DNA from: Methylobacterium sp. 2A
GTDB taxonomy: Bacteria > Pseudomonadota > Alphaproteobacteria > Rhizobiales > Beijerinckiaceae
Direction of reading: 5' to 3'
NCBI RefSeq assembly: GCF_009806555.1
Contig: NZ_VUOK01000060.1
Span: 186,001-250,000 of the forward strand
Length of the DNA stretch: 64,000 bases
Shown in pieces: positions 51,816-60,506 of this stretch (its first letter is position 1; each line of letters starts with the position of its first letter). Under the pieces are notes generated by a model, which was not told the DNA's origin, did no database searches, and was given only the letters and a program-made list of their open reading frames with translations. Both the position numbers and the translations under genes were made by a program.

Positions 51816-54371
51816 TCAGCCGCCTGCCGCCCGCCGCGCCGGCATGATGATCTCCACCAGCGTGCCGTCGTCGGCCGGCGTGGAGAGCCGAAGGCGACCG
51901 CCATTGGCCTCCACCAGGGCGCGGGGCAGGGCGAGGCCCTCCTCCACATCCGTGCCGCGACCGTCTGTGGCCCCCGTATCCCGAACCCGCAGGGCGACCG
52001 CCGCCCGCTCGACCGCCCCTGTCGACACGATGATCTGGCCGCCGGCCGCCGAACGCCGAAGCGCGTTCTCGATGATCAGGGCTGCGGCCCGACTCACGGA
52101 GCGCTCGTCGGCCTCCAGTTCCGCCAGATCGGAGGAGAAGCTCGTGCGCACGAGGATGCGGCCGCGGGCCGCCTCCGCCTGGAGCCGCGCCACGCATCCG
52201 GCCGCGACGTCGTTGAGATCGAGGGCGCGCGGTTCAAGGTGCAGGGCGCCGGCCTCCACGGCCGCGAGGTCGAGGAGTTTGCCGACGCGTTCGAGCATCC
52301 CGTGGCCCGAGGCCTTGATCTCGGCGAGACAGGCGCGATAGCGCGCATCGCCGAGGGCGCCGAAGGGCTCCTTCAGCATCGCATCGGCCAAGTCGATCAT
52401 CCCGGTGAGGGGGTCGCGGACGGCGCGGTCCAAACGCGCCAGGGCTGTCTCGTTCGAGGAGTCGCGGTCAGATGTCTCCAGTGGCGGATGCCCGCGGAGG
52501 CGGCTCGTCCGCTCGAGGAGGCCGATGAGACGGTCATCCCCCGCGGCGGCCTTGACCTCGAGCGTCACCGGCGTTCCCGCGAGGGTCACACGGCGCGGTC
52601 CCCCCACCACGCCGCGCAGGATGTCGGCGACGGTCAGCACGCAATCTCGGTCGAACTGGGCGACGAAGCTCCCGCCGACGATCTCCCGGGGCTCGCAGCC
52701 GAACAGGGTGGCGGCGGCGCGGTTCACGGCCACGATCCGTCCCGCCTGATCCAGGGTGACGATGCCGGTATCGAGAGCGTCCAGAGCGGCTTCGGCGCCG
52801 ACGGCCCGCTCGGCCTGCGCGGCCCGGGCAAGGCGTTCCGCCGCCAGGGCGGTCGCCGCATCGGCCTCCTCGACCGGGCGGAGGATCAGGCAGGTCGCGG
52901 CCTCGCCCGCCCAGATGCAGGCTCCGCTCAGGACTTCGACCGGCTGCGTATGCCCAGCCGCGCCTGAAATCGCGGTCAGGCGCGGGGCCGGATCCGCGTC
53001 CCCCGTCCGGGACAGGCCCGGAAGCAGCGTGTTGAGCCCGCGCTGCGACATGGCCGCGCTATCGGCGTCGCCGGTCAGCTCCAGTAGCCTGCGGTTTGCC
53101 GCGAGGACCACGCCATTCCGATGCACCAGAGCCGGAACCGGAAGCCCGTCCAGAATCTCGGCGAACGGAGCTGCGCTGCGCTGACCGTCGCGCAGATCCG
53201 GGATCCCCGCCTGTGGCCCGGGAAACGGCATGATCGCCCCGCCTTCCGGTCGCGATGCCGCGCTTTCGGGGGCCGCCTCGTCGCCGGCATAGCGTGCCCC
53301 GAGTGCCCGGGCGATCTCCCGGAATGCGGCATGCTCGTCCTTCGACAGAGCGACCGACGCGCGCTCGGCCTCGCCAGCACGCGCGGGCACAGGTTCGTCC
53401 GCGATCGCTTCGGCTTCGGCTTCGGAGGGCGCCTCGGTGAGGGCGGGCGCCGCGCTGTGCGCAACTTGCGTTTCCGGCGGGGCTGTCGGCGTGACCGTCG
53501 GCAGGGAGCGGATCAGGCCGAAGCCGGCAAAGCCCGAGAAGCTGGCTTCACCCCGTCCGAGCGGCGCGCCCGACAGTTCGATCCGGCACGGACCGGCGCC
53601 GGCATCCAGCACTGCCGGCTCGCCACGAAAGGTCCGCCGCTCCCGCAGGGCCGCCAGAACCCCATCGGCGCCCGACACGCGGCCGGCCGCGGCGAGATCC
53701 TGCCATCGCTGGCCGACGAGGCCCGCCAGCAGGTCCGGACCGGTGAATTGAACGACCACGCCCGAGGCATCGAGCCGCCACAGGAACCGGTCGTCCCGAA
53801 CCGAGGCGGGCGTGGGCTCTGCACCGGGCCCGATCGCGTTGCCCTCGGGTCCGGCTCCATACCGGCCCTGCGACGCATACGCGTGCGCCGAACCGGTATC
53901 CGCGCCGTCGGAACGCGCTGCCGGCACCGCTGCTGCCGCCATCGGGCGCGTCCGCGACACCACCGGAGCCGTGGGAATCAGCAGGATCGCGCTCCTCCCA
54001 TCATCGCGTTTCCCGCCGGCCAGCCAGCAGAGCATGGGCGGTGCGATGCGGCGTGGATCGAGGCGCAGCCGCGCGAGCCGGGGGGGAGCTTCGGTCGGAG
54101 CCGCCGCGACGATCTGGCGGGACAGCTCCGCAAGGCCGGGTCCGGAGAGCGACTCGGCCAGGGCGCGCGCCGCCGGGGGAGCGTGCAGGATCCGGCGCTC
54201 GTCCGCATCGATCACCAGATAGATCGCGTCCGACCGCGTCAGCGCCGCCGACAGGCTCGGCAGCCGCCGCCAGCTCGCGAACGCCGCGGCGAGGCCGTGC
54301 TCACGCTCCAGATCGGCCGGTGTCAGTGTCGTCTCCAAAGCCCGCGACCTCGAACCCAAACGCAATTCCAC
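51816..54371 (-). CDS. PAS-domain PdhS/PleC-like kinase lacking the phospho-His
   Basis: An ~851-residue cytoplasmic protein (start uncertain: TTG 54401, GTG 54371 or TTG 54365; GGGAGG lies at 54375-54380). Several PAS-like parts are visible: near residues 190-260 (DDRFLWRLDASGVVVQFTGPD), 400-480 (AEILDGLPVPALVHRNGVVLAANRRLL) and 530-610 (DALDTGIVTLDQAGRIVAVN). The C-terminal ~220 residues match PdhS/PleC kinases: ARYRACLAEIKASGHGMLERV, LLDLAAVEAGAL, LNDVAAGCVARLQ, ILVRTSFSSDLAELEADERSVSR, IIENALRRSAAGGQIIVST. The H-box reads DRAVRDPLTG where relatives have HELRTPLN-type residues: the phospho-His is Arg. The G1 box is DTGATD and G2 GLALPRALVEANGG, so ATP binding may also be weak. Confidence 0.82.
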   Translation of the reverse strand: MELRLGSRSRALETTLTPADLEREHGLAAAFASWRRLPSLSAALTRSDAIYLVIDADERRILHAPPAARALAESLSGPGLAELSRQIVAAAPTEAPPRLARLRLDPRRIAPPMLCWLAGGKRDDGRSAILLIPTAPVVSRTRPMAAAAVPAARSDGADTGSAHAYASQGRYGAGPEGNAIGPGAEPTPASVRDDRFLWRLDASGVVVQFTGPDLLAGLVGQRWQDLAAAGRVSGADGVLAALRERRTFRGEPAVLDAGAGPCRIELSGAPLGRGEASFSGFAGFGLIRSLPTVTPTAPPETQVAHSAAPALTEAPSEAEAEAIADEPVPARAGEAERASVALSKDEHAAFREIARALGARYAGDEAAPESAASRPEGGAIMPFPGPQAGIPDLRDGQRSAAPFAEILDGLPVPALVHRNGVVLAANRRLLELTGDADSAAMSQRGLNTLLPGLSRTGDADPAPRLTAISGAAGHTQPVEVLSGACIWAGEAATCLILRPVEEADAATALAAERLARAAQAERAVGAEAALDALDTGIVTLDQAGRIVAVNRAAATLFGCEPREIVGGSFVAQFDRDCVLTVADILRGVVGGPRRVTLAGTPVTLEVKAAAGDDRLIGLLERTSRLRGHPPLETSDRDSSNETALARLDRAVRDPLTGMIDLADAMLKEPFGALGDARYRACLAEIKASGHGMLERVGKLLDLAAVEAGALHLEPRALDLNDVAAGCVARLQAEAARGRILVRTSFSSDLAELEADERSVSRAAALIIENALRRSAAGGQIIVSTGAVERAAVALRVRDTGATDGRGTDVEEGLALPRALVEANGGRLRLSTPADDGTLVEIIMPARRAAGG

Positions 54372-54520
54372 GTTCCTCCCGGGAGAAACGACGACGACCA
54401 ACGCCCTTTTGTAAACGCTCTCTCGGGCAGGCGCTAAAACTTCGCAACGACCGTCACATGTTTACGTTATGTCAACCTTAATGCCGATGGCGTGGCTGGC
54501 ATATGACGGCGAATCGGTTA

Positions 54521-56382: not shown

Positions 56383-57201
56383 TCAGACCCCCTCGTCGGT
56401 ATGCACATCGAACCGGGCGAGATGGGCGTAGCCGAAGTTGGTGGAGATCGCGCAGTCGGTGGCATCGCGCCCGCGCGCCATGACGATGCGGCCGATGCGC
56501 GGGCGGTTGTGCCGGGCGTCGAAGGTGTACCAGCGCGGCCCGGACGGCCCGTCGAGATAGACCTCGAACCAGGCGGAGAAATCCATCGGCGCCGGGTCCT
56601 TGGGCACGCCGATGTCGCCGAGATAGCCGGTGGCGTAGCGGGCCGGGATGTTCATGCAGCGGCAGAACGCGATGGCCAGATGCGCGAAGTCGCGGCAGAC
56701 GCCCTCGCGCTGCATGAAGCCGTCATGGGCGGTGCGGGTGGCGTCGGCACGCTGGTAGTCGAAGCGCAGGCGCTCGTGGGTGTAGTCGACGATCGCCTGG
56801 ACGCGAGCCCAGCCCTCCGGCGTGCTGCCGAACAGCGACCATGCGGTCTGGGACAGCTTGTCGGTGTCGCAGTAGCGCGAGCCGAGCAGGAACATCAGCA
56901 CGGCATCCGGCAGGTCCTGCACCGGGATCTGGCGCGCTCCGGGCTCGACCACGTCCGGCTCGCCGCTGTCGGCGACCGTGAAATCGGCCGAAACCGTCAG
57001 TTGGCCCGGCGGCGCAACGATGCGGTGGCAGATGTTGTCGAAGGTGTCCCGATACTCGTGGGCCGGGATCGGCGGATCGAAGGTGATGACGTGCGGCGTC
57101 AGCACGTCGGGCATCCGCGACGGGTGGACGCTCAGCATCAGGATCATCGGGGTCGGCTGGGTCATCGTGAAGGCGATATCGAAACCCGTCTTGATCTTCA
57201 T
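56383..57201 (-). CDS. transglutaminase-like cysteine-peptidase-fold protein, His-to-Ser at the usual active site
   Basis: A 272-residue protein of the COG1305 transglutaminase-like group. An N-terminal beta part (residues ~1-130) is followed by the core with Cys in REGVCRDFAHLAIAFCRC, then DFSAWFEVYLDG and WYTFDARHN. In canonical members the aromatic before AW is His (HAWxEVY); here it is Ser, so the Cys-His-Asp triad is incomplete if no other His substitutes. This may be a non-catalytic branch, or a family-wide variant. It lies 66 bases downstream of a related gene with an intact His. ATG 57201 is chosen for its GAGATGG; ATG 57210 is possible. Confidence 0.8.
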   Translation of the reverse strand: MKIKTGFDIAFTMTQPTPMILMLSVHPSRMPDVLTPHVITFDPPIPAHEYRDTFDNICHRIVAPPGQLTVSADFTVADSGEPDVVEPGARQIPVQDLPDAVLMFLLGSRYCDTDKLSQTAWSLFGSTPEGWARVQAIVDYTHERLRFDYQRADATRTAHDGFMQREGVCRDFAHLAIAFCRCMNIPARYATGYLGDIGVPKDPAPMDFSAWFEVYLDGPSGPRWYTFDARHNRPRIGRIVMARGRDATDCAISTNFGYAHLARFDVHTDEGV

Positions 57202-57266
57202 CGCGGCCATCTCGCTGTGGTGCCATTCGCGCGGGGTCGCCACGCACGCTCGTTCCGGGTCCGGAA

Positions 57267-58211
57267 TCAACGCGCCGGGACTGGGGTGGAATCCTGGCTC
57301 TGGATCGGCGCTGCCGGGGCCGGATTCATCGTGGCCATGGGCAACTCGACGACGTCGACTTCGACGCGCATGCCGAGATCGTCGCTGGCCAGACCGAAGA
57401 AGGATCCGTGCAGCGGCACGGCCTGTGCCGGATCACGCGTCACCGCCACGCGGATCAGGTCGCGGTTCCCGACAATCCCGTTGGTGGGGTCGAACTCGAC
57501 CCAGCCGGCGCCGGGCAGGTAGACCTGCAGCCACGCATGGGTTGAGCCGCCGCCGACATGGCGCGCCCGGTCGTTGCGGGGATTGTAGAGATATCCGGAC
57601 ACGAAGCGGGCCGCCATGCCGAGCGCCCGCACCGCCTCCATCATCAGCACCGCGAAATCGCGGCACGAGCCGCGCTTGCCGCGCAGGGTGGTGAGCGGGT
57701 CCTGCACGCCCTTCTCGGAGCGCGCGAGGTAGGTGAAGTTGGCGCGCACGCTGCGGGTCATGGCGGCCAGCAGTTCCTGCGTGGGGATGCGCCCGTCCGC
57801 CGGCAGGAAGCTGCGCGCCCAGGCATCGACCTCGTGGCGCGGGTCCGGCCATTGCCGCTCGATCGAGCGGGCGAGATCCGGCATGTCCTCCGCGCCGTAG
57901 CCGAACGGGTAATGGGTCGCGTGCGGGGCGAGGGGGAAAACCGGGGCGTGCTCCGGCGTGTGCTCGAGGGTGATGCCGCAGGCGAAGGTGAGTCTTTCCG
58001 CCCGTGTGTCGAAGGTCGCCACTGCCACGCAATTGCCGAACACGTCGAAGAGCCAGCGCAAGGTGGCCGGCTCCGGCGTGATGTCGAGGGTCGCCTCGAT
58101 CAGCCGCTGGTCGTAGCTGTCGCGCGGCCGGAACATGATCCGGTGCTCGCCGAACGAGACCGGGCGCCGGTACTGGTAGACCGTTTGGTGGCGGACGGAC
58201 AGGATCGGCAA
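57267..58211 (-). CDS. transglutaminase-like protein with intact triad
   Basis: A 314-residue COG1305 protein. Residues ~1-110 are the Bact_transglu_N beta-rich domain (SVRHQTVYQYRRPVSFGEHR). The core has Cys in GKRGSCRDFAVLMMEAVRAL, His in STHAWLQVYLPG and Asp in WVEFDPTNG, with VSGYLYNP between, so the protease/transglutaminase triad is complete. Its role is not known; relatives are often paired with a second copy, as here (56383-57201). TTG 58211 is the start: GGGAGAG is ~6 bases upstream; longer frames upstream are not protein-like. No signal peptide. Confidence 0.85.
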   Translation of the reverse strand: MPILSVRHQTVYQYRRPVSFGEHRIMFRPRDSYDQRLIEATLDITPEPATLRWLFDVFGNCVAVATFDTRAERLTFACGITLEHTPEHAPVFPLAPHATHYPFGYGAEDMPDLARSIERQWPDPRHEVDAWARSFLPADGRIPTQELLAAMTRSVRANFTYLARSEKGVQDPLTTLRGKRGSCRDFAVLMMEAVRALGMAARFVSGYLYNPRNDRARHVGGGSTHAWLQVYLPGAGWVEFDPTNGIVGNRDLIRVAVTRDPAQAVPLHGSFFGLASDDLGMRVEVDVVELPMATMNPAPAAPIQSQDSTPVPAR

Positions 58212-58339
58212 ATCGGCTCTCCCGGCGCATGCCGCCGTGGCTTCATCAACGCGCGACGGCACGATGCAAGGGCCGGGCCCCGCCGGTCGAAGGCCGGTGC
58301 GCGAAGGGGCGATTGGCAGCGCAACCGGACGATGGCCCC

Positions 58340-58933
58340 TCAGAGGACCGGCGGTGGCGGCTCGGCGGCTGCGCGTTCCGCCTCGACCAGGACGTCGAGC
58401 GGGCGCCAGGGCTTGGCGATGAACACGGCCTCTTGCGGCAGTTCGGGGCGGGGCAGATCGTGGCCTGAGGTCACGACCAGTCGCGCCCGGGGCCAGAGGG
58501 TCGCCACCGCCCGGGCGAGCTGCAGCCCGTCCATCTGGCCGGCGAGCCGGACATCGGCGAAGACCAGCGCGACCTCGCCACCCCGCGCCTGCAGGACCGA
58601 CAGGGCCGCTTCGGCGCTGTTGCACCCGATGACGTCGAGCTCGGTCTCTTCGAGCAGCGTCTCGGCGAGGGCGCGGATTTCGGGATCGTCTTCAACCACG
58701 AGTGCTAGCCGCGGATGCGCGGTAGCCGATGCGGCGACGCCGGCCTCCTGTCGGGCGGGCTGGTCGGCCTCCTGACGCACGCGGCGCACGAGGGCGGCGA
58801 GATGCTCCGGCACGCCCTCGGAAACCAAATCATCGTAGAACGACGCCAATGTCCGGCCGATCTGATCGAGCGGAACGCCCGGCGTCAGCGTATCGGTAAG
58901 CGGCAGGGGTGCGCTCGTCTGGTGCTTGCTCAA
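58340..58933 (-). CDS. NepR-like domain fused to a response-regulator receiver
   Basis: A 197-residue protein in two parts. Residues ~22-54 (PLDQIGRTLASFYDDLVSEG then VPEHLAALVRRVR) follow the two-helix pattern of the anti-sigma factor NepR (xxIGxxLxxxYDxVVxEPVPxxxxxLL). Residues ~75-190 are a receiver domain: acidic EDD81-83, phospho-acceptor Asp127 in LVFADVRLAGQMDGL, Thr/Ser in VVTSGHDLP and Lys174 in VFIAKPWRP. NepR normally binds sigma EcfG and is removed by phosphorylated PhyR; here the same two functions appear covalently joined, though the receiver is of a different branch from PhyR. TTG 58933 is chosen with GGGGGGAG upstream. No sigma factor or kinase is adjacent. Confidence 0.78.
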   Translation of the reverse strand: MSKHQTSAPLPLTDTLTPGVPLDQIGRTLASFYDDLVSEGVPEHLAALVRRVRQEADQPARQEAGVAASATAHPRLALVVEDDPEIRALAETLLEETELDVIGCNSAEAALSVLQARGGEVALVFADVRLAGQMDGLQLARAVATLWPRARLVVTSGHDLPRPELPQEAVFIAKPWRPLDVLVEAERAAAEPPPPVL

Positions 58934-59052
58934 GGACTCCCCCCGAAGTCTTCCCGTGCGACGGACAAGAACGCGGTGCACAGGGAGGAAAGTCGGCAAT
59001 TCGCCGGTGGTTGCGAAACGCAGACCGAATCGCGACGCGGCTCTCGGACCCG

Positions 59053-60234
59053 TTACTGCGTGACGGTTTCCGCGTCGGCATACGCCATGATGCCGGAGAC
59101 CGCCCGCACGTTCTGGTAGCGCGAGCCGCGGGTGCTCATCATCGCCTCGAACTTCTCGTGGACCTGGGCCACCGACAGGCTGACGGGCTTGCGATGGCGA
59201 CCGCGGCCGGTGAAGCGACCCGCCGCGAAGAAGATCGCGCGGTTGGCCCGGGCCGGACCGGGGAGCAGCGCAGCTGCGGCCGTGGCCGGCTTGTTCACGA
59301 CGTTGGCGAGGAATTCCTCGGCGTCGTCCGGCCCGAGGAAGTGGGCAAGGTAGACTTCGCCGAGAGTAAGTTCGCGCCCGATGCGCAGCGCGATCCGGGC
59401 GGCGTCCCGCTTGAGCATCTCGCCGGCCATCAGCGCCGAAAGATAGGGATCGCGGCGCAGTTCGAGTACCCGGGCGCGCTCGGCCGGATCGGTGATCACC
59501 GGCCGGTCGTTGGCATCGGCCGTGACCAGCGCGGCCTCCTTCTCCAGGCCGTACTTGGCGCCGAAGTCGCGGACGACGCCGAGCCACGTGCGCTCGATGA
59601 ATTGATAGAGGCCGGTCGCCGAGGAGGTCTTGGCCTGGACCGCCGTGATAAAGCTCGATTCCTTGTCGGCCACCGCCATGAGCAGGACTGGGTCGGTCTG
59701 CACGGCCTGTGCGGCGCGCACGATCGTCTGGACGATGTGGCGCCGGATCTTCATCGGGCCGAATTCGAGGATGTCGTTCGGGTCGCCCCCCGCACTTTCG
59801 GAGAGCAGGAAGTCGTAGGACACGCGGTCGACCGTGTTGGAGCCGATCTCGGTGTCGAGGTCGTGCACGGCGGCGAAGCTCGACGCAGCGCGCAGGGGCG
59901 TGCGCTCCAGCTCGTCCTCCAGCGCCACGGTGTGGATGCGCGGCCGCGGCATCGGGATCTCGGTGGCGGCTTCCGCGACCGACACGGCCGGCGACAGGCC
60001 GACCTTGCCGAGATCGACGCCCGAGCCGATCAGCGCCGCGCTGAGGCCGCCGGCGATCAGCGACACGGTCATCACCGACCGGACAAGGGCGGAACGGCTG
60101 CCATGGGCGCGGCCGAGCATCGGCTGCGCGGCGATCACGTCGGCGCGGCCCGCGCCGAAATGCCCGGCGCCCGGTTTGCCCGTGCCCGACTTGCCCATGA
60201 TGGTCTTCGACGTTCCGACCGTGCGGCCCTGCAT
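59053..60234 (-). CDS. lytic transglycosylase-like (SLT-domain) protein
   Basis: A 393-residue protein. A basic, Gly-rich N-terminus (~1-45) precedes a membrane or signal helix (SLIAGGLSAALIGSGVDLG, with AVSVAEAA after it). The SLT core follows, with catalytic Glu in MAVADKESSFITAVQAKTSSATGLYQFIERTWL. A long helical C-terminal region (DPYLSALMAGEMLKRDAARI, LGEVYLAHFLGPDDAEEFL) is typical of rhizobial soluble transglycosylases. They cut the glycan strand to 1,6-anhydromuramyl products. ATG 60234 is chosen with GGAT; ATG 60282 is possible. The gap to the TonB receptor (60235-60506) has no gene I can support. Confidence 0.82.
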   Translation of the reverse strand: MQGRTVGTSKTIMGKSGTGKPGAGHFGAGRADVIAAQPMLGRAHGSRSALVRSVMTVSLIAGGLSAALIGSGVDLGKVGLSPAVSVAEAATEIPMPRPRIHTVALEDELERTPLRAASSFAAVHDLDTEIGSNTVDRVSYDFLLSESAGGDPNDILEFGPMKIRRHIVQTIVRAAQAVQTDPVLLMAVADKESSFITAVQAKTSSATGLYQFIERTWLGVVRDFGAKYGLEKEAALVTADANDRPVITDPAERARVLELRRDPYLSALMAGEMLKRDAARIALRIGRELTLGEVYLAHFLGPDDAEEFLANVVNKPATAAAALLPGPARANRAIFFAAGRFTGRGRHRKPVSLSVAQVHEKFEAMMSTRGSRYQNVRAVSGIMAYADAETVTQ

Positions 60235-60506
60235 CGTTGATCCGATTCCCCGCGCGCCGGTAATGGCGCCCGGATTCAACATCGCTTGACAGATGTGGCG
60301 ACAACACGGCCGTGCTTGTGGCGGCTCTGGGGCGGGGCGAGGTGATTTTGCGGCCGAGGCCAGGAGGAGGACAGGCGGAAGCACGATTCCCGGCGCCATG
60401 CCGGTATTCGGCGCAGGGGACGGTCGCCTCTTACCGCCCGCCTTCGCGACAGCCGCACAGCGCGAAGTCGGCCACGGAAGCGGGCCACGAAGGAGAAGCC
60501 GTCACG

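Follow-up and report, generated by a model that had tools for sequence, protein, structure and literature searches.

The window, a stretch of 64,000 nucleotides from Methylobacterium sp. 2A, carries a gene for a protein in which a NepR-like domain is followed by a variable linker and a response-regulator receiver (Table 1). GGGGGGAG stands directly upstream of its TTG start, and a start at the same place was found by eye in 13 of 22 aligned orthologs (TTG in 12, GTG in one). The gene is flanked by two unrelated-looking genes and adjoins neither phyR nor ecfG: upstream lies a frame judged by eye to be lytic transglycosylase-like (59053-60399, minus strand), and downstream a transglutaminase-like gene, also by eye (57267 to about 58214, minus strand). 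The latter forms part of a pair of adjoining transglutaminase-like genes (56383-58214, minus strand, by eye) directly downstream of the NepR-receiver gene; further along the window, a large frame (51816-54401, minus strand) looks by eye like a PAS/HisKA sensor kinase. The upstream neighbour is present in 44/44 of the loci L016-L029 and L074-L103 (L074 is the window's own locus, and several of the other 43 are identical strains from two collections), in 11/11 of the loci L104-L114 and in 13/14 of the loci with pseudo-receiver orthologs, and since it is kept across loci the NepR-receiver orthologs are taken as positional orthologs. The nearer transglutaminase-like gene is present in 43 of 55 intact-ortholog loci, many of them with short flanks. 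The closest named relatives are Methylobacterium species.

Table 1. Features of the NepR-receiver gene and its upstream region (positions in the window; residues of the encoded protein).
Feature	Position	Strand	Remarks
NepR-receiver protein CDS (197 aa)	58340..58933	-	TTG start 58931-58933, TGA stop 58340-58342; frame open
NepR-like domain, residues 22-53 (helices 22-38 and 43-56)	58775..58870	-	PF18557, hhalign, shuffles, AlphaFold, dN/dS
Variable linker, residues 57-73	58715..58765	-	pLDDT < 50 at 57-71; dN/dS about 1.0 for residues 54-73
Receiver (REC) domain, residues 75-190	58364..58711	-	PF00072, structure match to 2rdm, AlphaFold strands
Asp127 codon, predicted phospho-acceptor	58553..58555	-	Asp in 90/90 full-length genomes; Gly in 14/14 pseudo-receiver orthologs
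Lys174 codon, receiver switch lysine	58412..58414	-	Lys in 90/90 full-length genomes; Lys-Pro-Trp motif gone in 14/14 pseudo-receiver orthologs
ECF-promoter-like block GCAAC-N17-CTTT	58989..59014	-	between upstream gene and start codon; aligned conservation

The original prediction had placed, by eye, a NepR two-helix pattern at residues ~22-54 of this protein and a complete receiver with Asp127 and Lys174 at residues ~75-190, and both halves of this architecture were borne out; a significant NepR match by profile, the lack of which would have told against the prediction, was obtained. The Pfam NepR family (PF18557) is found at residues 23-51, with 25.5 bits (E 1e-5) for the whole protein, just below the gathering score of 25.7, and a profile check of the first 65 residues alone gives 28.2 bits (E 1.4e-6), above it. 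All 44 rows of an alignment of the window protein and 43 orthologs match both Pfam NepR and Response_reg at E ≤ 0.01. Profile-profile comparison (hhalign) of 16 N-termini, the window's included, with stand-alone NepRs returned a probability of 95.2% (E 2.8e-8). With a stand-alone NepR profile, built from 28 proteins drawn from across the class, including two of Methylobacterium, the N-terminus of the window protein scores 25.4 bits, against a maximum of 11.3 among 20,000 composition-preserving shuffles, by which chance similarity is rejected. In the reverse direction, the N-terminal profile was run against two sets of 397 genomes, one from the family and one from the order, with six matches outside the genus in the first and 19 in the second, the 19 all lying in frames of 78-180 aa; Pfam, run on three of the six and six of the 19, identified NepR above the gathering score in 9/9. 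Within the core, the L, the Y and the hydrophobic residues of VPEHL are kept, none of the 44 rows departing from L29, Y33 or L45; where NepR has R33 there is an invariant Ala (A30), and the usual EP motif reads EG. The two helices foreseen in the original prediction do appear in the AlphaFold model (21 sequences; mean pLDDT 75.4), at low confidence only (pLDDT 53-61 per ten-residue block), and the receiver is confidently modelled from residue 76.

Other searches speak against these matches or limit how far they can be read. The NCBIfam NepR equivalog model gives the window protein 16.2 bits against a cut-off of 100, which is passed by no match in the genome, the strongest NepR included. A PDB sequence search with the single sequence has NepR as its top match (3t0y_B, E 0.24), and with the ortholog profile ATP-citrate synthase (E 0.0018) ranks above NepR (E 0.079); as this search was borderline, the Pfam and reverse searches were relied on instead. 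Structure searches probe the receiver only, and the absence of NepR chains among the matches listed is uninformative on the helices. As to the specificity of Pfam NepR, 8 of 14 control genomes have a match at E ≤ 1 and one has a match over the cut-off, with E ≤ 1e-5 reached in Caulobacter only. Across the class, PF18557 at E ≤ 1e-5 gives 47 matches in 39 of 289 genomes; of the 34 matches that were read, 32 look stand-alone by eye and two are proteins of the present genome, one of them an ECF sigma factor with a NepR-like extension. With 197 aa and a receiver, the window protein departs from the stand-alone character of the NepR family. By profile it is a NepR homologue, neither a stand-alone NepR nor a PhyR.

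Response_reg (PF00072) matches residues 78-159 at 42.1 bits, and none of the 44 rows deviates at E81, D82, D127, T155, S156 or K174. AlphaFold predicts no helix between beta4 and beta5, the strands at 151-156 and 170-173 being separated by coil, and structure comparison of the receiver places 2rdm first (VIA-align Z 19.0, 1.8 A over 121 residues). By its receiver, the window protein is a response regulator, predicted to be phosphorylated, and the union of a NepR-type helix pair, a variable linker and a complete receiver in one protein is confirmed at the level of sequence. The idea of a stand-in PhyR, which would bind the sigma factor when phosphorylated, is disfavoured: Pfam search found no sigma-family match in the whole protein or in its N-terminus, the PRK09191 (PhyR) model gives 30.6 bits over residues 39-187 against a cut-off of 240 (the genome's PhyR scores 360.7), and the PhyR receiver, 28% identical to that of the window protein, ranks 23rd of its 24 own-genome matches, a rank which also leaves a PhyR origin of the receiver unsupported. 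The closest own-genome receiver (G000:C45:159459-159800, plus strand, in L151) has about 130 residues and 60% identity and lies about 85 kb away on the same contig; having no visible NepR part, it is possibly a relative that has lost it. The receiver-domain tree has mostly modest support and carries long-branch warnings, and it is taken as evidence only for the existence of related receiver lineages.

The NepR core is the most constrained region of the NepR-receiver protein: in 946 pairwise comparisons of 44 sequences, residues 22-53 have a dN/dS of 0.13, residues 54-73 one of 1.02 and residues 74-190 one of 0.20. A full-length match (E ≤ 1.5e-59, query start ≤ 14, end ≥ 192) is found in 90 of 111 genomes of the genus, and Glu81, Asp82, Asp127, Thr155 and Lys174 are present in all 90 (86 aligned by script, four by eye); of the 86 script-aligned genomes, 84 have Ser and two have Thr at position 156. 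L29 and Y33 are invariant both in these 86 and in 14 pseudo-receiver orthologs. Among the 21 genomes of the genus without a full-length match, 14 match the N-terminal profile. In five (G030, G032, G036, G050, G051) of the remaining seven, a related receiver protein begins with a degenerate NepR-like stretch, and the N-terminal profile finds no match in G073 or in G078 (70% complete). The NepR-receiver protein is real and conserved.

In the 14 pseudo-receiver orthologs (L145-L149, L190-L198) the NepR core is kept and the phospho-acceptor, together with most of the receiver active site, is lost. All of them retain Gly26, Leu29, Tyr33, Asp34, Pro42 and Leu45, and all have Gly at both Glu81 and Asp127; Thr155 is replaced by Ala or Val and Ser156 by Gln or His, the second acidic residue (82) stays Asp or Glu, and the Lys-Pro-Trp motif falls in a gap, with an Arg near the Lys site in 13/14 (by eye). 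Their NepR part remains under constraint, with a dN/dS of 0.24 (linker, 0.85; pseudo-receiver, 0.30). Related proteins were also seen elsewhere. Another genus of the family has a NepR-receiver protein (L139:1941-2504, plus strand, in genome G300, 61% complete) with an altered acidic stretch (VVEREDEP) and with the Asp and the Lys kept. In a paralogous group of receiver proteins beginning with MR (L115-L121, L123), the NepR-like N-terminus is degenerate and the receiver retains its Asp and Lys; Pfam NepR picks up three of the eight members at E ≤ 1, with a best E of 0.012, seven members score 0.2 to 21.8 bits with the stand-alone NepR profile, and the group's own profile compared with NepR gives 93.4%.

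The genome contains several further NepR-like modules. A strong NepR gene (52.8 bits with Pfam NepR) adjoins phyR. Four ECF sigma factors have NepR-like N-terminal stretches (L006, 39.2 bits; L010, 23.3; L012, 16.2; L014, 13.9), of which that of L006 alone is over the Pfam cut-off; they are called EcfG-type because of the published NepR-like extension. There are also four short NepR-like frames (L007, 29.8 bits; L011, 22.6; L013, 15.4; L015, 12.8), again with a single one, L007, over the cut-off; the L007 frame lies just before an overlapping sigma-factor frame, and the L011 frame near an ECF sigma gene (L014). A hybrid histidine kinase of 809 aa (C34:58814-61243, i.e., L150:3815-6244, plus strand) has the order PAS-PAS-HisKA-HATPase-REC-REC followed by a NepR-like helix pair. 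With Pfam NepR (gathering score 25.7), the kinase scores 28.5 bits in the genome search and 23.4 bits as a whole protein; with the stand-alone NepR profile its tail scores 35.3 bits. In 79 of 111 genomes of the genus, a match to the second receiver and tail of the kinase (E ≤ 9.1e-61) extends at least to position 157 of 166, and nine diverged tails keep the NepR pattern in part. Tentatively, the NepR helix pair may be seen as a portable output module in Methylobacterium, placed on EcfG sigma factors, on a receiver and on a hybrid kinase tail; in that case two-component signalling would reach the anti-sigma side directly and form, in parallel with PhyR, a second branch under phospho-control, which receiver decay would have frozen in one clade.

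The block upstream of the gene resembles an ECF promoter. In the form GCAAC-N17-C(T/G/A)T(T), its GCAAC is aligned in 21 of 22 upstream regions, and it departs from the published EcfG consensus GAAC-N16,17-C/GGTT. Tested for EcfG control, the upstream site reaches 7 of 9, and 274 of 500 shuffles do at least as well; as the single site is thus no better than shuffles, only the aligned conservation speaks for a promoter. The extended GCAAC pattern has no second copy in the genome at ≤ 1 mismatch, and being single-copy it gives no regulon.

Published work on NepR paralogues offers a guide to what the helices may bind. M. extorquens has three of them: META1p1275 and META2p0735 co-precipitate PhyR and META1p2700 does not, no EcfG tested was bound by any of the three in two-hybrid assays (the authors allow for missed interactions), and overexpressed META2p0735 lowers stress resistance, META1p1275 and META1p2700 having no effect (available text of PMC4814048). 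In Sphingomonas, NepR2 co-precipitates PhyR and is a negative feedback regulator; alanine at L32/Y36 of NepR or at L31/F35 of NepR2 reduces activity, alanine at R33/R32 does not, and M46 of NepR2, the equivalent of M48, did not matter (accessible sections of PMC6599016). By alignment, L32, Y36, R33 and M48 of Sphingomonas NepR correspond to L29, Y33, A30 and L45 of the window protein. Furthermore, PhyR need not be phosphorylated for NepR to bind it, and NepR may act cooperatively with PhyR phosphorylation (PMC12148442, in the part available).

From these published paralogue and NepR-PhyR data we infer, with a probability of about 0.48, that the protein may be a phosphorylation-gated NepR paralogue that binds PhyR and lowers the general stress response (GSR), i.e., an anti-anti-anti-sigma factor in which phosphorylation of Asp127 would open or close the helices. 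The PhyR side is favoured because two of the three M. extorquens paralogues co-precipitate PhyR and none bound an EcfG tested. The NepR helices would compete with NepR proper for the sigma-like domain of PhyR, and such binding would lower the general stress response; a histidine kinase would phosphorylate Asp127 and thereby open or close the helices for binding, so that the response would gain a brake with its own signal input, which would be permanently set in the one clade without the phosphorylation site. Since the linker is unconstrained, phosphorylation is suggested to expose or hide the helices rather than to pass on a rigid movement, and such a linker argues against tight allosteric coupling. 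As the R33 position is Ala and EP reads EG, the partner may differ. For the proposed PhyR antagonist we count the two-way NepR homology, the published results on META1p1275, META2p0735 and NepR2, the constrained core, the kept L29 and Y33, the complete receiver, the NepR gene beside phyR and the conserved ECF-like block; against it stand the A30 and EG changes, the failure of META1p2700 to co-precipitate PhyR, the lack of effect of overexpressed META1p1275 or META1p2700, the locus away from phyR and ecfG, the non-EcfG character of the promoter block, the unconstrained linker and the 14 orthologs without a phosphorylation site. A sigma inhibitor and a PhyR decoy, both put forward in the original prediction, are possible.

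It is rather unlikely that the protein is a phosphorylation-controlled anti-sigma factor, its helices binding an EcfG-type sigma directly and its receiver releasing or applying the inhibition without PhyR. NepR proper of M. extorquens does bind EcfG1 and, weakly, EcfG5, for most EcfG paralogues of that species no anti-sigma factor is known, the control that PhyR probably exerts on EcfG2 lacks an explanation, and in the present genome several ECF sigma factors carry NepR-like stretches at the N-terminus; however, NepR bound only EcfG versions without their own NepR-like extension, and in two-hybrid assays the three paralogues bound no EcfG, with misses allowed by the authors (available text of PMC4814048). 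Repurposing of the helices without a GSR partner, so that they would act within the protein or on another receiver or kinase in a different pathway, is quite unlikely. The altered R33 position and EP motif are consistent with it, as are the paralogous group in which the receiver is kept and the NepR-like N-terminus is much degraded, the related receiver without a NepR domain by eye and the tested neighbours, which are not GSR genes; the core, on the other hand, keeps its L, Y and VPEHL hydrophobics under purifying selection stronger than that on the receiver, and is retained even where the receiver has lost its catalytic residues. A role as phosphate sink or adaptor, in which the helices bring the receiver to the PhyR-kinase complex and Asp127 drains phosphoryl groups from PhyR, is improbable: in Caulobacter the single-domain receiver MrrA takes part in the stress network (available text of PMC5964349), its hub role appears in PMC13344952 as well, and a long unconstrained linker would suit tethering, yet the 14 orthologs keep the NepR part without the Asp, so that draining cannot be the function in those orthologs. 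That the NepR resemblance is due to chance, or the N-terminus is untranslated, is very improbable, since in spite of the short domain, the TTG start, the whole-protein Pfam score just below the gathering score, the NCBIfam score far under its cut-off and the ATP-citrate synthase that outranks NepR in the PDB sequence search, none of the 20,000 shuffles attains the score, 44/44 rows match, the reverse search recovers NepRs and the frame evolves at a dN/dS of 0.13.

In the standard alphaproteobacterial model of the general stress response, PhyR phosphorylation throws the switch and NepR is the passive partner. If the PhyR-antagonist reading is correct, phosphorylation may also govern this supposedly passive step, and a protein conserved in most of the genus would supply a second phosphorylation input on the opposite side of the GSR switch. 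The reading would also provide a testable answer to how the M. extorquens NepR paralogues are regulated, and possibly bears on the unexplained PhyR control of EcfG2 (PMC4814048, available text). The pseudo-receiver orthologs are a natural test of the design, giving a ready comparison of switchable and frozen versions. In the available text of the open-access literature searched, whose scope excludes subscription papers, neither a NepR-receiver nor a kinase-NepR fusion is described, and the word 'receiver' is absent from PMC4814048. CstR (Mext_1965), a single-domain regulator of 381 nt (PMC13344952), was considered as an ortholog and rejected, since primer 1 of that paper matched 0/111 genomes at ≤ 1 mismatch and at most four of its seven fingerprint residues are shared: among eight related proteins, the mutated residues match 3/7 in L104-L106, L108-L110 and L122, and 4/7 in L107.

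Among the known systems, the window protein shares with NepR and its stand-alone paralogues (META1p1275, META2p0735, NepR2) the helix pair, the L-x3-Y-D-x4-E-x-(V/I/L)-P core and the conserved L/Y contacts, and probably, with the paralogues, a negative effect on the PhyR switch; unlike them, for which no receiver is described, it has a complete receiver, Ala at the R33 position and EG for EP. The receiver systems SypE and HsbR, in the descriptions available, likewise join a receiver to parts of a partner switch of the anti-sigma type, with protein families and sigma factors that differ from those of the NepR-receiver protein. MrrA, Mext_0407 and CstR, single-domain response regulators of the same class, are receivers in or near the stress network, but none of them is described with a NepR module. 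As in the EcfG extension of Methylobacteriaceae (PMC4814048, available text), a NepR module is fused ahead of another GSR-type domain, the fused partner being a sigma factor in EcfG and a phosphorylatable receiver in the window protein. Like PhyR, finally, the protein combines a receiver with a GSR binding module, and phosphorylation would be expected to control partner switching; whereas PhyR has the NepR-binding sigma-like domain, the window protein has the NepR side, with a receiver distant from that of PhyR.
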